Assembly: GCA_900315735.1 (NCBI GenBank)
Contig: ONAD01000002.1
Coordinates: forward strand, 13,060-77,059
DNA length: 64,000 nt
Origin: an uncultured Lachnospiraceae bacterium
Lineage (GTDB): Bacteria; Bacillota; Clostridia; Lachnospirales; Lachnospiraceae
Direction of reading: 5' to 3'
Shown here: piece by piece, positions 12,992-54,917 of the stretch
Layout of the letters: each line of letters starts with the position of its first letter
Position numbering within the stretch: the first letter of the stretch is position 1
The notes under the pieces: generated by a model
Seen by the model: the letters and a program-made list of their open reading frames with translations, nothing else
What the model was told of the DNA's origin: nothing
Database searches by the model: none
Position numbers and translations under genes: made by a program

Positions 12992-14461
12992 TCAGTCAGC
13001 CTGTAAAACAAACATATCATTTCTCATATGTACCCGTTCGATTTCGTTGCGGCGGTAGGTCTGAATCAGATAGTGATTTTTCCGGTCAAAGACCAGAGCA
13101 ATCTTCTTCGTAAATGTGGAAGTTCCCGGAGTATATTCAATGATATGTAAGGATGCACGGTACTGTTTCTTTAATTTCCAGATGTCCATCAGACCGATTC
13201 CGCTGCCGCCACTGTCCTTGTGGGTAGTGTGCTGGGTCTGACCGAAATCTTCAAAAAGCTGCACATCAAAGGCATTTCCACTGTCGGAAATCTCTATGGT
13301 GCAACTGTTCTCATCATGGCAAAGGTAAGCAGAAAGGCTGCGCACCTTGCTGTTACCAATGGCAATCATGGCATTTTCTAATAAATCCGCCAGAAGGTGG
13401 GAAAGGTCTTCCCCGGAAATCACATCCTCCGTCATCTTTACAATATCGCCTGTGATGTGCAGGGAAAAGTTGATGTTCTGCGCCAGGGCACGCTGCTGCA
13501 TATAAGTAAAAAGCGCATCTAAGACGCAGACTCCGGTTGTTGGAAGCGCATGTTCATCATGGCGGTAGGAGTTCAGCGTACCTTTCCGATCCTGTGCCAT
13601 GGTCTTTAACTCATTGGCAAGCTGTTCGCCTTTCTTTCTGGTATCACCGCCTGTAGCTTCCGCCTCTAAGTATTCGCAGACAGCCAGCTCCATTGCCGGA
13701 ATCAGCTTGTTATCCTTATGAATAATCTTAGCCAGAGCATCATTATTTTCTTCCAGTTCCCGGATGCGGTTGTCTTTCTCACTGAGTTCATTCTGCAGAG
13801 CCTTAAGCTCCGACTGCCGCAGCTTCTCCAGGTAGTCACGGGTAATCCGGAACCGCCACCAGCAGTAAAGCAGAAGTCCAATCAGGAAAAGGGCGATGAG
13901 GAGAAAGAGGAACTGCATGTCAGGAATCGTATCGTAAAAACTGATTATGGTAACAATGAGCAGAATAAAACAGCTTAAGATGAAACCTGTGGCAGAGGAG
14001 CCAATCTGATAGAGAAATGGCATACCACGGCGGAGTCTTTTGATTTTGAAGAGCAGGAACAGTAAAAGTAATTCGATAAGTCCACCTGAAATTTGGATTG
14101 CAACATAAGGTAAATCATAACGTCCATAGAAAAATGGAGCAGCTACCAAGGCTATAACAAAGGCCACAAGAAGAAAGAGTATATAATAAATAGCTTCAGA
14201 AATAACCAACGTTACAAGACTTAATGAAATTGTTTTTTTAGCAAAATGAGACAATATAAAAGTATTAAAAAATATAATTGCTGGGAAAATAAAAATAAAA
14301 TTTTTAACTTCTAAAAATGAAAAAATTAAGCTTTCTATAAGAAAGATGACTATAAAGGATATTTTATGAAGAATTTTAGGATTCTTCAAATTAAGAAGCT
14401 TATAAAAAAGATAAAAGCTACAAAGAAAGTTAAAAAACCAACGAATTAAATCTTGAATCAT
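12992..14461 (-). CDS. GHKL-type membrane sensor histidine kinase
   Basis: I chose the ATG at 14461 because GAGG lies about seven bases upstream; the longer in-frame ATG at 14473 overlaps that site. About 490 residues. The first 215 residues hold roughly six hydrophobic membrane segments, followed by a coiled coil (LRQSELKALQNELSEKDNRI), a phosphoacceptor region (LAKIIHKDNKLIPAMELAV) and a HATPase domain with LADLLENAMIAIGN, SDSGNAFDV and GGSGIGLMDIW. This is the polytopic peptide-sensor architecture seen in AgrC and VirS. The upstream same-strand gene encodes its probable partner regulator. A 13-codon frame starts divergently 117 bp away. Base composition falls sharply over the N-terminal, membrane-coding part. 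Confidence 0.9.
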   Translation of the reverse strand: MIQDLIRWFFNFLCSFYLFYKLLNLKNPKILHKISFIVIFLIESLIFSFLEVKNFIFIFPAIIFFNTFILSHFAKKTISLSLVTLVISEAIYYILFLLVAFVIALVAAPFFYGRYDLPYVAIQISGGLIELLLLFLLFKIKRLRRGMPFLYQIGSSATGFILSCFILLIVTIISFYDTIPDMQFLFLLIALFLIGLLLYCWWRFRITRDYLEKLRQSELKALQNELSEKDNRIRELEENNDALAKIIHKDNKLIPAMELAVCEYLEAEATGGDTRKKGEQLANELKTMAQDRKGTLNSYRHDEHALPTTGVCVLDALFTYMQQRALAQNINFSLHITGDIVKMTEDVISGEDLSHLLADLLENAMIAIGNSKVRSLSAYLCHDENSCTIEISDSGNAFDVQLFEDFGQTQHTTHKDSGGSGIGLMDIWKLKKQYRASLHIIEYTPGTSTFTKKIALVFDRKNHYLIQTYRRNEIERVHMRNDMFVLQAD

Positions 14462-14495: not shown

Positions 14496-14519
14496 AAAAT
14501 GCAGTCTAAAATGCAACCC
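14496..14519 (+). promoter_or_regulatory. Two 12-bp direct repeats (AAAATGCA) upstream of the microORF
   Basis: AAAATGCAGTCT (14496-14507) is followed directly by AAAATGCAACCC (14508-14519). A TATACT -10-like hexamer lies at 14541-14546 with no matching -35, so activator-dependent transcription is plausible. CTGGTAACCAG (14519-14529) is a small palindrome at the -35 position. Confidence 0.4.
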
Positions 14520-14577
14520 TGGTAACCAGTCTGTTTTTTCTATACTCTTCTTACATTTTGAGAAGGAGGAAGAAAGA

Positions 14578-14619
14578 ATGGCTTGGTTTTTAGATTTTAT
14601 AAAAAAATATTTTGGTTAA
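14578..14619 (+). CDS. Candidate 13-residue amphipathic peptide between kinase and regulator
   Basis: The ATG at 14578 opens a 13-codon frame, MAWFLDFIKKYFG, ended by TAA at 14617. AAGGAGG (14563-14569) lies eight bases upstream, an ideal site that no other frame uses. The peptide is aromatic-rich and amphipathic if helical, with D6, K9 and K10 on one side and W3, F4, F7, I8, Y11 and F12 elsewhere. It is divergent from the sensor kinase, and its stop overlaps the stop of the convergent response regulator. Peptides this short cannot be assigned by homology. It could be a secreted signal, a small membrane-active peptide or a leader. There is no AgrB-like protease or export gene adjacent. Confidence 0.5.
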   Translation: MAWFLDFIKKYFG

Positions 14620-15398
14620 CGTCCATCCGTAATCTTTTCCGCATAGAAGTAAATGAACTCCTTAATGGTAGGCATTCCGCGGTCAGGATTAATGTGGGCG
14701 GTGTAGCAGTTAAGAAGAGTTTCGGTGTCATTGGAATTCCATGCGCGGTTAATGGCATTTTGCATGGCGCGTTCCACACTGGAATTACTCTTCTTATACT
14801 TGTTACCAAGAATCTGGGAAATGTTTGTAGTCGGGGCATCAATCGTTATCATAATAGCGTCGGTCAGGTACTTGTAACCAACAACCTTTGGATTGATACC
14901 GATTAGCTCCAGTTCCCGGTGAATTCTGCGAATCAGACTTTGTTCTAAATCTTTCTGGCTATCTTTCATATAAGAAGTGTTAGATGATGACTCAGCAATT
15001 TCAATCATAGGAAGAAGCTGTTCAAGAAAATCAACAGCAGATTCCAGTGAGTAGGAATCTTCATATTTGCCGATGATAAAATCAGCACCAAGTCTTCTGG
15101 CAGATTCCAGAGTAATTTTGCTGGAGTTGTAAGTAGTAACAAGGATATAAGGCTTTTTCTCTAACCCCAGTTTATTTAAGTCAGAGAGGAAAAACAGTCC
15201 GTTTCCCCCGCCATGATGTAATTCCAAATCAAGAATAACAGCGTCAGGAAGCGTATGCTGCACATATTGGATGCCAACATAGGAATTGTTGGTGACGCCG
15301 ACTAAATCCATATTATCTTTAGTTGCAATATAGTTTGAAATACGATTGCAGGTATTCATATCATCTTCAATTAGTAAAATGTGGAGTGGTTTTCCCAT
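14616..15398 (-). CDS. Response regulator with Spo0A-type DNA-binding domain
   Basis: I chose the ATG at 15398 because AGGAGG is eight bases upstream. 260 residues. An N-terminal CheY-like receiver (HILLIEDD, phosphoacceptor in AVILDLELHH, LVTTYNSS, Lys in IIGKYED) is followed by a C-terminal domain. Its pattern GYKYLTDAIMITI, SSVERAMQNAINRAWNS and PTIKEFIYFYAEKI matches the Spo0A C-terminal fold, including the conserved SxVERAxxxAIxxAW recognition helix. It is probably a paralogue rather than the sporulation master regulator, because it lacks the usual spoIVB neighbour and pairs with a GHKL kinase. A promoter and four 10-bp tandem repeats lie upstream. Confidence 0.88.
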   Translation of the reverse strand: MGKPLHILLIEDDMNTCNRISNYIATKDNMDLVGVTNNSYVGIQYVQHTLPDAVILDLELHHGGGNGLFFLSDLNKLGLEKKPYILVTTYNSSKITLESARRLGADFIIGKYEDSYSLESAVDFLEQLLPMIEIAESSSNTSYMKDSQKDLEQSLIRRIHRELELIGINPKVVGYKYLTDAIMITIDAPTTNISQILGNKYKKSNSSVERAMQNAINRAWNSNDTETLLNCYTAHINPDRGMPTIKEFIYFYAEKITDGR

Positions 15399-15474: not shown

Positions 15475-15503
15475 ATTATATCTCAAAAACCCCTTAAAAA
15501 CAA
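15475..15503 (-). promoter_or_regulatory. Promoter of the Spo0A-type regulator gene
   Basis: On the minus strand TTGTTT (15498-15503), a 17-base spacer and an exact TATAAT (15475-15480) lie about 77 bases upstream of the start at 15398. Confidence 0.6.
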
Positions 15504-15536
15504 CAAAAAACAATATAAACCAACGAAAACCAACAA
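15497..15536 (-). repeat. Four tandem 10-bp repeats overlapping the regulator promoter
   Basis: On the plus strand the units are AAAACAACAA, AAAACAATAT, AAACCAACGA and AAACCAACAA, an exact 10-bp period from 15497 to 15536. They overlap the -35 hexamer and extend upstream. One unit per helical turn suggests cooperative binding on one DNA face, possibly by the regulator itself. Confidence 0.5.
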
Positions 15537-15629
15537 CAAAAGTATAAAGTTTCAACTGGAAAAAAGTGGTAAACTACCCAGTAAGGAGTATAGATAAAGA
15601 AATTGAGTTGTGCAAAGTTATTATATAGA

Positions 15630-15770: not shown

Positions 15771-16022
15771 ATGATAGCAGTAAAATCAATGAATGTAAGA
15801 GACCATTTTAAAGAGTGGTGTAATAAGGTAATAAATGGAGAGACTATTATTGTATCAAGACCAAAGAATGAAAATATTGTTATGATGTCTGAAGCAGAAT
15901 ATAACGATATGAAGAAAGCTCAGAGAAATGCAGACTATCTGGCTATGCTGGACAAATCTATGTCTGAAGCAGAATCTGGAGGAGTTATTGTAAAAACAAT
16001 AGAGGAATTGGAGAATTTATAG
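15771..16022 (+). CDS. YefM/Phd family antitoxin
   Basis: I chose the ATG at 15771 (GAGGTG just upstream); an in-frame start at 15699 lies inside the promoter. The 83-residue protein begins MIAVKSMNVRDHFKEWCNKV and has IIVSRPKNENIVMMSEAEYN, the Phd/YefM DNA-binding domain, followed by an acidic helical tail that would wrap the toxin. The partner YoeB gene begins at the base after its stop. It should repress its own promoter through the TACGAA repeats. Confidence 0.92.
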   Translation: MIAVKSMNVRDHFKEWCNKVINGETIIVSRPKNENIVMMSEAEYNDMKKAQRNADYLAMLDKSMSEAESGGVIVKTIEELENL

Positions 16023-16283
16023 GTGAATATCATTTTTACACCGACTGCCTGGGAGCAGTATACAGAGTGGCAGCGGGAAGATAAGAAAATAGTAAAACGC
16101 ATTAATGAATTGATAAAAAGTATAGACAGAGAGGGATTGGCACAGGGAATAGGTAAGCCCGAACCGTTGAAATACAGGAAAGTGTGGAGCAGGCGGATTA
16201 CAGATGAACACCGCCTTACATATAATTTTGATGTAAATCAGAACTTAATTATTTATACCTGCAAATATCATTACGAAGAGTAG
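16023..16283 (+). CDS. YoeB/Txe family mRNA interferase toxin
   Basis: This is an 86-residue protein starting with GTG directly after the antitoxin stop. IIFTPTAWEQYTEWQREDKK, KRINELIKSI and GKPEPLK are diagnostic of YoeB. The catalytic residues Glu (GKPEPLK), Arg (WSRRITDEHRLTY) and the C-terminal His (CKYHYEE) are all present. YoeB cleaves mRNA in the ribosomal A site. The loop before WSRR is about two residues shorter than in the E. coli protein. A terminator hairpin follows directly. Confidence 0.94.
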   Translation: MNIIFTPTAWEQYTEWQREDKKIVKRINELIKSIDREGLAQGIGKPEPLKYRKVWSRRITDEHRLTYNFDVNQNLIIYTCKYHYEE

Positions 16284-16425: not shown

Positions 16426-18063
16426 ATGGAGAAAAGCGCAATCAGCCGTTGGGGGAAACGGGTATCCTGCTATTTACTGACAGCCGTTCTATTGCTGGTG
16501 CAGCAGCAAGAGGTCTTTGCCATGGGGGAAGAAGAGGTACAGGCAGAGGAAATCAAGCAGGCAGAGGGAATCGAGCAGGCAGTCTATGGTGCAGAGTTAA
16601 GCACCGGAGATACTTTTGATGTAGGCGAAATAAAATATTATGTCCGCATTCCTTCATTAAAGGAAGTAATTGCATATGGAGTAGCAGATGGCACAACATT
16701 GTCCGGAACAGTAACCATTCCGGCAACCGTTGATTATGATGACGTGACATATTATGTAGGCAGCATACAGCAGGAAGCCTTTAAAGACTGCACACAGATT
16801 CAGAAAGTTGTGATTGCAGATGGAATAGAAAAAGTTGGTATCGGTGCCTTCAAAGGATGTACCGGAATAGAAGAAGTAGAACTTCCGGAAAGCGTAAATG
16901 TAATCTACTGGGAAGCTTTTTCCGGCTGTACAGCACTTCGCACCGTGAAAATGCCATCATCCATGAGCAATATTTACAACAGTGCATTTATGAATTGCAG
17001 CAGTCTGGAAAGTATTGTGATTCCAAGCGGAATTACAAGCATTGATGCAAGTACCTTCAATGGCTGTACAAGTTTGAGTCAGGTTACATTTCCAAGTGGA
17101 TTGCAGTCTATTGGAAATGCAGCATTTCTTGAATGCAGCAGCCTGACAAATATTAATTTTCCGGACAGTTGTGTAACAATAGGCGATACATCATTTTCCG
17201 GCTGCAGCAATCTTGTCAGCGTGGAAATATCTGATAAAGCACAGATAGCGCGTGGAGCATTTTTTAACTGTTTCCAGTTGCTTCAGATGAAAATACGCGT
17301 ATCCGACACAGATGGAACGGTGTCCCGGACGTTAGGTGTGAAATCAGATGAAACAACATTTGGCGGGGATACTGCAATCGGAACCGTTCCGACAAATCGT
17401 GTTTTAACATTTCTGAAAGCGGACGGAAGTTCGGAACTGACAAATGTGACCACGCCGACAAAGACAGCGGCACAGCGCGCTTATCAGAATGTAAATGACG
17501 GAGACACAACCGATAATTACTGGTATGGATGGAGCCTTGGAGCCATTGAGAATCTAAGCTATGCTATAGACATTTCCGTGAAAAAGGACAATGCTTTATG
17601 GACTGACCATGGAAAGACTTTCGTTCTTTCTTCGGATGGAACTATATTTCTGACTGATTTAACGGCAGTAGATAATGGAACATACCGCATTTATGAAGTC
17701 ATAGCCGATGGAAGAAAAGACACCGGCATGGATGTGACAGTAGCAGATGGAAATGCACAGGCAGAAGTTTCCTATTATACAGTAACCTTCTATGATGGGG
17801 ACACTGCTTATGGGGCAGATACTGATTTTGCACCGCAAGTGCTTTTAAAAGGAGAGCATCCACAGGAGCCATCCACTGAACCGACCAAAGAGGATTATAC
17901 ATTTCTGGACTGGGTTCGCACAGATGGCGGAACGGAAAGTTTTGATTTTACAGAAGCAGTAAATGATACAACCGCTGTTTATGCAAACTGGGTGCAGAAC
18001 CCGGTTCCACAGCATACGATTACCGCAGCTGCATCCACAGGTGGAAGTATCAGCCCGGCGTGA
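16426..18063 (+). CDS. BspA-like leucine-rich-repeat surface protein, N-terminal part before an in-frame TGA
   Basis: This part has 545 residues. A signal peptide (about residues 1-33) is followed by about seven BspA/Treponema-type leucine-rich repeats of 22-24 residues (for example AFKGCTGIEEVELPESVNVI, AFSGCTALRTVKMPSSMSNI). Next is a Listeria-Bacteroides (InlB-type) beta repeat (VTFYDGDTAYGADTDFAP). The frame is stopped by TGA at 18061 in the middle of a GGSISPA.SITVNEGSNSSF beta-domain motif where homologous repeats have Gly. The same frame then continues to 18795. Without the C-terminal part the product has no anchor and would be released. Such proteins bind host or community ligands outside the cell. 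Confidence 0.8.
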   Translation: MEKSAISRWGKRVSCYLLTAVLLLVQQQEVFAMGEEEVQAEEIKQAEGIEQAVYGAELSTGDTFDVGEIKYYVRIPSLKEVIAYGVADGTTLSGTVTIPATVDYDDVTYYVGSIQQEAFKDCTQIQKVVIADGIEKVGIGAFKGCTGIEEVELPESVNVIYWEAFSGCTALRTVKMPSSMSNIYNSAFMNCSSLESIVIPSGITSIDASTFNGCTSLSQVTFPSGLQSIGNAAFLECSSLTNINFPDSCVTIGDTSFSGCSNLVSVEISDKAQIARGAFFNCFQLLQMKIRVSDTDGTVSRTLGVKSDETTFGGDTAIGTVPTNRVLTFLKADGSSELTNVTTPTKTAAQRAYQNVNDGDTTDNYWYGWSLGAIENLSYAIDISVKKDNALWTDHGKTFVLSSDGTIFLTDLTAVDNGTYRIYEVIADGRKDTGMDVTVADGNAQAEVSYYTVTFYDGDTAYGADTDFAPQVLLKGEHPQEPSTEPTKEDYTFLDWVRTDGGTESFDFTEAVNDTTAVYANWVQNPVPQHTITAAASTGGSISPA

Positions 18064-54547: not shown

Positions 54548-54917
54548 AAAAAAGAATGAAGTTTTCCGGGGAAAGCGTTAGGGGTGAAAGAAGCGTAATG
54601 TCCGTGCTGTTCAGTGAGTCCGAATGCGACATAAGGGCGGCAAGGGGCACTAAGAATTTCGAAGGGATATGAGATTGGCTGGCAACCGGCGCAAATTCAC
54701 ATCCATGTTCATCTGCGCCTCGCCGGCACGTCCCTGTGCCGGCGATGCCTGGCACTATCCGAAATTCCAAGTGCCCCTAGCTGCCCTTATCATGCATCCG
54801 CACTTCGCTGAACAACACGGACATTACGCATTCCAAGTGCCCCTTGCAGCCCTTATATCGCATCCACACTCGATAAACCGTGGGGATATCCATTTCGTTA
54901 AAACTTTATTCTTTTTT
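54548..54917. repeat. 370-bp structured inverted-repeat element
   Basis: Outer arms AAAAAAGAATGAAGTTTT (54548-54565) and 54900-54917 are complementary at 17 of 18 bases. Inside, a 69-bp left unit (54593-54661) pairs with a 70-bp right unit (54760-54829) at about 83 percent. The right unit is followed by a direct second copy with a 66-bp period (from 54830). The GC-rich centre holds CGCCGGCAC/GTGCCGGCG (54721-54744) and GGCGCA/TGCGCC hairpins. This fills most of the 530-bp gap between two divergent genes. No protein gene is credible here. It could be a mobile miniature element or a structured RNA. Confidence 0.65.

Follow-up and report, generated by a model that had tools for sequence, protein, structure and literature searches.

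Quorum sensing in gut and rumen Clostridia is known mainly from systems of the Agr or RRNPP type. The phenol-soluble modulins and delta-toxin, the gene of which lies beside agr, are leaderless, amphipathic helical peptides that are presumably N-formylated; modulins have 20 residues or more and serve as effectors, with a dedicated transporter of the ABC type for their export. The streptococcal SHP and ComS/XIP systems have very small, Trp-containing peptide genes, and display pherotypes and positive feedback (PMC8605241). In agr, a hypervariable block takes in the 3' part of agrB, agrD, and the 5' part of agrC (PMC3673130). PhoQ is inhibited by MgrB, a product of 47 aa that is encoded within the regulon (PMC8404706).

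In the 64,000 nt of DNA analysed here (the window), annotation misses a gene of 13 amino acids situated between a sensor kinase and a response regulator. This leaderless frame, MAWFLDFIKKYFG, was read directly on the plus strand (nt 14578 – 14619, stop included), with its ATG at nt 14578 – 14580 and a TAA stop (14617 – 14619) that overlaps by two bases the minus-strand stop of the convergent regulator gene (14616 – 14618). A Shine-Dalgarno (SD) sequence, AAGGAGG (14563 – 14569, plus strand), precedes the ATG with an 8-nt spacer, and a strong SD is present in nearly all homologous loci. Among all ATG frames of 9 – 24 codons in the 64-kb window, this one has the best anti-SD energy (-12.2), the next being -11.1. 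The start, SD and stop given in the original prediction were confirmed on the sequence, as was divergence from a six-segment GHKL kinase, which begins with an ATG at nt 14458 of the minus strand. A -10-like element of the peptide promoter, TATACT (14541 – 14546, plus strand), lies 37 nt 5' of the ATG, and in homologous loci the pattern TAT[CA][CA]T occurs between -26 and -48 more often than expected (16/52, compared to 2.7). Since nothing closely homologous to the window peptide itself was found, the case for it depends on the family pattern described below.

The kinase (488 aa; nt 12992 – 14458, minus strand) matches Pfam HATPase_c and HATPase_c_5. It has six membrane segments according to Kyte-Doolittle and, in a structural model (pLDDT 90), an additional N-terminal helix; in this model the membrane-helix bundle is followed by a long signalling helix and then the catalytic domain. 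The H-box His (H247 in the 488-aa numbering) is invariant in 57/57 kinases, and the N- and G-box residues are conserved. Matches of the model to PDB structures span the cytoplasmic part only, with the sensor fold lying outside them, and over this part S. aureus AgrC is among the best matches (Z 14.7; 203 residues at an rmsd of 7.3), tied with other kinases. The regulator (nt 14616 – 15398, minus strand) consists of a receiver and an output domain (Pfam Response_reg and Spo0A_C, the latter at 83 bits). All receiver active-site residues are kept (D12, D13, D57, K111 and T89 are invariant), and the pair retains the phospho-acceptor His and Asp and the catalytic boxes of a two-component system. 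The regulator scores 117.5 bits against the NCBIfam Spo0A equivalog, below the cut-off of 200, and the Spo0A of the same genome (L002) scores 352.5 bits. Judged by these profile scores, the regulator is a Spo0A paralogue and not Spo0A itself. Just upstream of its gene are a YefM-type antitoxin (Phd/YefM, 83 aa) and a YoeB toxin (86 aa; together nt 15771 – 16283, plus strand). The window also carries a BspA-type leucine-rich-repeat surface protein with a Listeria-Bacteroides repeat (16426 – 18063, plus strand) and a TwoAYGGAY RNA motif (54629 – 54792, minus strand; 86.7 bits, well above the gathering score).

Regulator homologues were gathered from the family, order, genus and class, together with a profile search of genome contigs. 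Scanning the contigs with one regulator protein gave no matches, and it was the scan based on an alignment of eleven regulators that found homologues. Candidate peptide genes were called by a rule (anti-SD energy of -8 or better, 9 – 24 codons), the limits of which were picked after the first examples had been seen; dinucleotide shuffles and the opposite strand were scored identically. A passing frame is present on the expected strand in 61/67 kinase-paired intergenic regions, against a mean of 4.05 (maximum 7) in shuffles and 3, i.e. chance level, on the opposite strand. In about 60 other Clostridia a frame of 11 – 21 codons occupies the same place in the same orientation, between the regulator stop and the divergent kinase. 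Six regions fail the rule, among them L038, where reading by eye gives MWDWWKFILDLLNQ behind AAAGGTGG; L074, where the peptide (MWAAVLATVRWFFSF) is encoded on the other strand, co-oriented and before the kinase; and L103, which has no kinase at that place. No peptide was seen in the kinase-paired loci L047, L062, L068, L084 and L092. In another family the peptide is co-oriented and lies between regulator and kinase (L119 MEEWFDALWQWVSKWL, L120 MNWLDALIRWMRKWGQP, L121 MNWYEDFLWWLKYWLY and L123 MDWFDRMVYYVMYLMGL), and regulator homologues lacking an adjacent kinase have no such frame. The carriers are Lachnospiraceae, Oscillospiraceae/Ruminococcaceae-type genomes, Family XIII and others, and their distribution is patchy (13/299 genomes of the family carry the system). 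Clustering of neighbours within 5 kb over the loci showed only the regulator and kinase to be conserved. The part of the original prediction that spoke of a minimal system is borne out family-wide, in that a conserved peptide gene goes together with a kinase of the GHKL type and a Spo0A-type regulator; signalling itself is considered below.

In a genus-mate, two tandem regulator copies stand 5 kb apart (L113 and L115; G637 contig C6, about 87.0 – 93.2 kb), with a peptide (MDWFWWFINIFCV, TTG start) and kinase adjoining the first copy only. At L066 / L114, a foreign-looking insertion with near-inverted ends (tgtcttgtctcgttgat...) directly follows the regulator stop and parts the regulator from the expected position of peptide and kinase.

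The 67 peptides have a median length of 15 residues (range 11 – 21), contain Trp in 65 cases, Cys in 11 and Pro in one, and have a net side-chain charge of -2 to +3. Examples are MGFWEWFWSLFSI, MRDFWHWFLYLFGI, MSFWKWFWGLFG, MKGYWKWLLKFFGY and MAEFWRILRDLFAA, the last from the cultured isolate 1XD21-13 (L067). When calculated by angle, the mean hydrophobic moment reaches its maximum at 100 degrees, the alpha-helix value, and lies above residue shuffles in 96%; the window peptide has the same helix-type amphipathicity. Frame 0 has 13.6% Trp and no stops, while the other two frames of the same DNA have 1.8 – 2.5% Trp and 6 – 7% stops. The nucleotide sequences of homologous peptide genes have diverged and their products are similar and leaderless; what is conserved is evidently the peptide rather than the DNA. 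Between the peptide genes of L023 and L049, for example, five codons have changed synonymously and five conservatively. Conservation of the frame and its SD in related loci, and synonymous change within it, had been proposed beforehand as the observations that would support a peptide gene; the former is seen across the family and the latter in L023/L049. An SD and ATG brought together by chance, a small RNA or an untranslated leader could be imagined at a frame of only 13 codons without a close homologue, but such an origin is very improbable given the strand-specific excess over the four frames expected, the restriction of helix periodicity and Trp to the SD-led frame, and the lack of nucleotide conservation. 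A conserved RNA was rejected, with no Rfam match at the site. The 13-codon frame is almost certainly a translated gene.

Helix periodicity and the absence of a leader are also what the phenol-soluble modulins display, and Trp-rich amphipathic helices are membrane-active by composition. The peptide might then be a membrane-active effector (a short modulin-like or leaderless antimicrobial peptide) under the control of a kinase and regulator that sense something else. A net charge near zero (see above) is unlike that of most antimicrobial peptides, however, there is no conserved immunity or exporter gene, and there is no need for an effector to diverge along with the sensor domain, as is seen at a few of these loci (described below). 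This explanation is considered quite improbable, even though in one lineage a C39-type bacteriocin export ABC transporter (L057:2532-4811, minus strand) is divergent from the regulator with boxes in the shared promoter region. That transporter is a possible exporter or target in its own lineage.

De novo motif discovery in 56 regions upstream of peptide genes yielded direct repeats in tandem, of 10-bp period and with the half-site NCAAYRAAAA (log-likelihood 172.6, compared to 61 – 71 in five shuffled sets), beginning mostly 90 – 110 nt 5' of the peptide ATG. The matrix from peptide promoters, untrained on regulator promoters, also detected repeats of the type CCAACGAAAA in front of the regulator gene in most members of the family, so that in most loci tandem 10-bp boxes precede both genes. 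We infer that the regulator binds and activates at these predicted boxes. The window has four tandem box-like repeats (acaacaaaaa acaatataaa ccaacgaaaa ccaacaacaa; nt 15500 – 15539, plus strand; 17.1 bits) upstream of the regulator gene. They are the sole such cluster in the genome, with no further arrays beyond the regulator promoter, and the best family-box score in the region upstream of peptide and kinase is only 3.6 bits. It had originally been suggested that the regulator controls the peptide through two direct repeats of AAAATGCA with 12-bp spacing, located between kinase and peptide (nt 14496 – 14515, plus strand; copies at 14496 – 14503 and 14508 – 14515). As these are not the family motif, of which the window has an intact set at the regulator promoter only, they were rejected as the regulator's operator, and are a possible local operator. 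Regulator boxes occur at other genes in a few relatives: two paralogous small secreted-protein operons of G1169 (L162 and L186) each stand behind three or four of them and are likely targets of this regulator family, and at L163 an extra array precedes an ACP-like gene.

L025, L027, L028 and L029 represent a common locus with regulators 92 – 97% identical; L027 – L029 share the upstream XRE-type gene, and L025, L027 and L028 the downstream gene. L025 and L028 have an identical peptide and sensors that are 93% identical. In the DNA of L027 and L028, the final 400 bp of the regulator genes are about 86% identical; identity falls to 30 – 58% from the regulator stop onwards, through the peptide gene and promoter and as far as about residue 197 of the kinase, and is then about 80 – 90% until near the kinase end. 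The break point coincides with the end of the transmembrane part of the kinase. At this locus, with near-identical regulators (93%), the peptide gene and kinase sensor diverge as one block, as they do in the agr specificity groups. Similar block divergence is seen in L028/L029 and L020/L076. Across all loci, peptide and sensor similarity gave a partial Mantel r of about 0 once kinase-core and regulator similarity had been removed, no correlation was found in close pairs, and covariation was dismissed as not significant after correction. The argument from joint divergence thus rests on few independent same-locus comparisons. The L061 and L086 peptides are 10 codons apart with no exchange of the sensor, and a peptide gene inherited jointly with its neighbours would likewise be carried along.

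Block divergence of sensor and peptide fits physical contact of any kind, also that of a microprotein that never leaves the cell, its amphipathic helix lying in the inner leaflet and tuning the kinase sensor in a feedback like that of MgrB on PhoQ. The lack of a leader, exporter or processing gene agrees with this, and the presence of boxes for the regulator before the peptide gene implies feedback. Rapid block-wise diversification at one locus, on the other hand, is what intercellular signals under social selection typically show, agr being an example (PMC3673130), and would not be expected of private feedback; furthermore, 11 – 16 residues are too short for a transmembrane anchor. An internal microprotein is regarded as unlikely, and an exported pheromone is favoured over both it and the membrane-active effector.

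The proposal of a peptide-signalling role is strengthened by the conserved boxes at the peptide promoter and the joint divergence of peptide gene and sensor. As a whole, a three-gene module in which a regulator-activated peptide is the ligand of the kinase, and probably an exported pheromone, is a reasonably probable reading. Taken separately, the peptide is quite likely the ligand of the adjacent kinase, and its export as a pheromone is somewhat probable. In such a module, the leaderless 13-residue peptide would form an amphipathic, aromatic-rich helix and would get to the membrane or medium without a leader or dedicated processing. No conserved exporter or protease was found among neighbours within 5 kb of the loci, and export, if any, must take a general route. 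This lack counts against the module, as do the poor box at the window's own peptide promoter and the kinase-paired loci in which no peptide was seen; the boxes between the regulator and the divergent bacteriocin-type exporter in L057 count in its favour. The peptide would be read by the adjacent kinase, AgrC-like in architecture, through its fast-evolving membrane sensor, and the kinase would phosphorylate the regulator. The latter would bind tandem 10-bp boxes before its own gene and, in most relatives, before the peptide gene, leading to autoinduction. Translation, export, kinase binding, the sign of the response and density dependence are all points that we infer from sequence.

More tentatively, and with slightly less than even confidence, these loci may constitute an undescribed class of cell-cell signalling in Clostridia, with ultrashort, leaderless, unprocessed, amphipathic Trp-rich peptides that would act through the membrane, no dedicated exporter, hypervariable AgrC-like kinases, Spo0A-paralogue regulators, and pherotypes exchanged as peptide-plus-sensor blocks. 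No earlier description of the module was found in the open-access full texts searched. If true, a widespread, unannotated peptide language would be added to the gut and rumen Clostridia. Genes of 11 – 16 codons are below usual annotation limits and can be found through conserved gene order; the family also supplies cognate peptide/kinase sets, and evolution at the L025 – L030 locus bears on the question of pherotype diversification in the absence of a processing enzyme.

Among described systems, MgrB (PMC8404706) would have in common with the module that the regulon encodes a small membrane peptide with its own kinase as target, but MgrB, an enterobacterial transmembrane protein of 47 aa, has no sequence relation to the module peptides. 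Like the phenol-soluble modulins, the latter are leaderless, amphipathic, helical and presumably N-formylated; unlike them, they have 11 – 21 residues, are very Trp-rich and diversify in linkage with a kinase. Very small Trp-containing peptide genes are likewise common to the short hydrophobic (SHP) and double-tryptophan (ComS/XIP) peptides, which are re-imported and bind cytoplasmic Rgg/ComR, whereas here a membrane kinase that has a response regulator of its own would be the partner; no adjacent RRNPP-type cytoplasmic receptor was found, the regulator and kinase being the only conserved neighbours. Regarding Agr (AgrBDCA, S. aureus and Clostridia), the module has no AgrB, AgrD-type precursor or thiolactone, and most peptides have no Cys. 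AgrB (PF04647) has no match in the genome (94% complete), as originally predicted, nor do the relatives have a conserved neighbour of this kind, and the 67 peptides of 11 – 21 aa do not resemble an AgrD-like precursor with conserved Cys/Ser and a C-terminal recognition tail. The regulator has a Spo0A_C output domain in place of the LytTR of Agr, and the peptide gene is mostly convergent with it rather than part of one operon. The original view that the system does not resemble Agr is nevertheless not supported in the evolutionary sense, the joint divergence being agr-like: a polytopic GHKL kinase (HATPase_c_5, six membrane segments) with an AgrC-resembling cytoplasmic part lies adjacent to a signal-peptide gene, the regulator would act near a divergent promoter, and, as in agr (PMC3673130), a hypervariable block extends over the peptide gene and the sensor half of the kinase.
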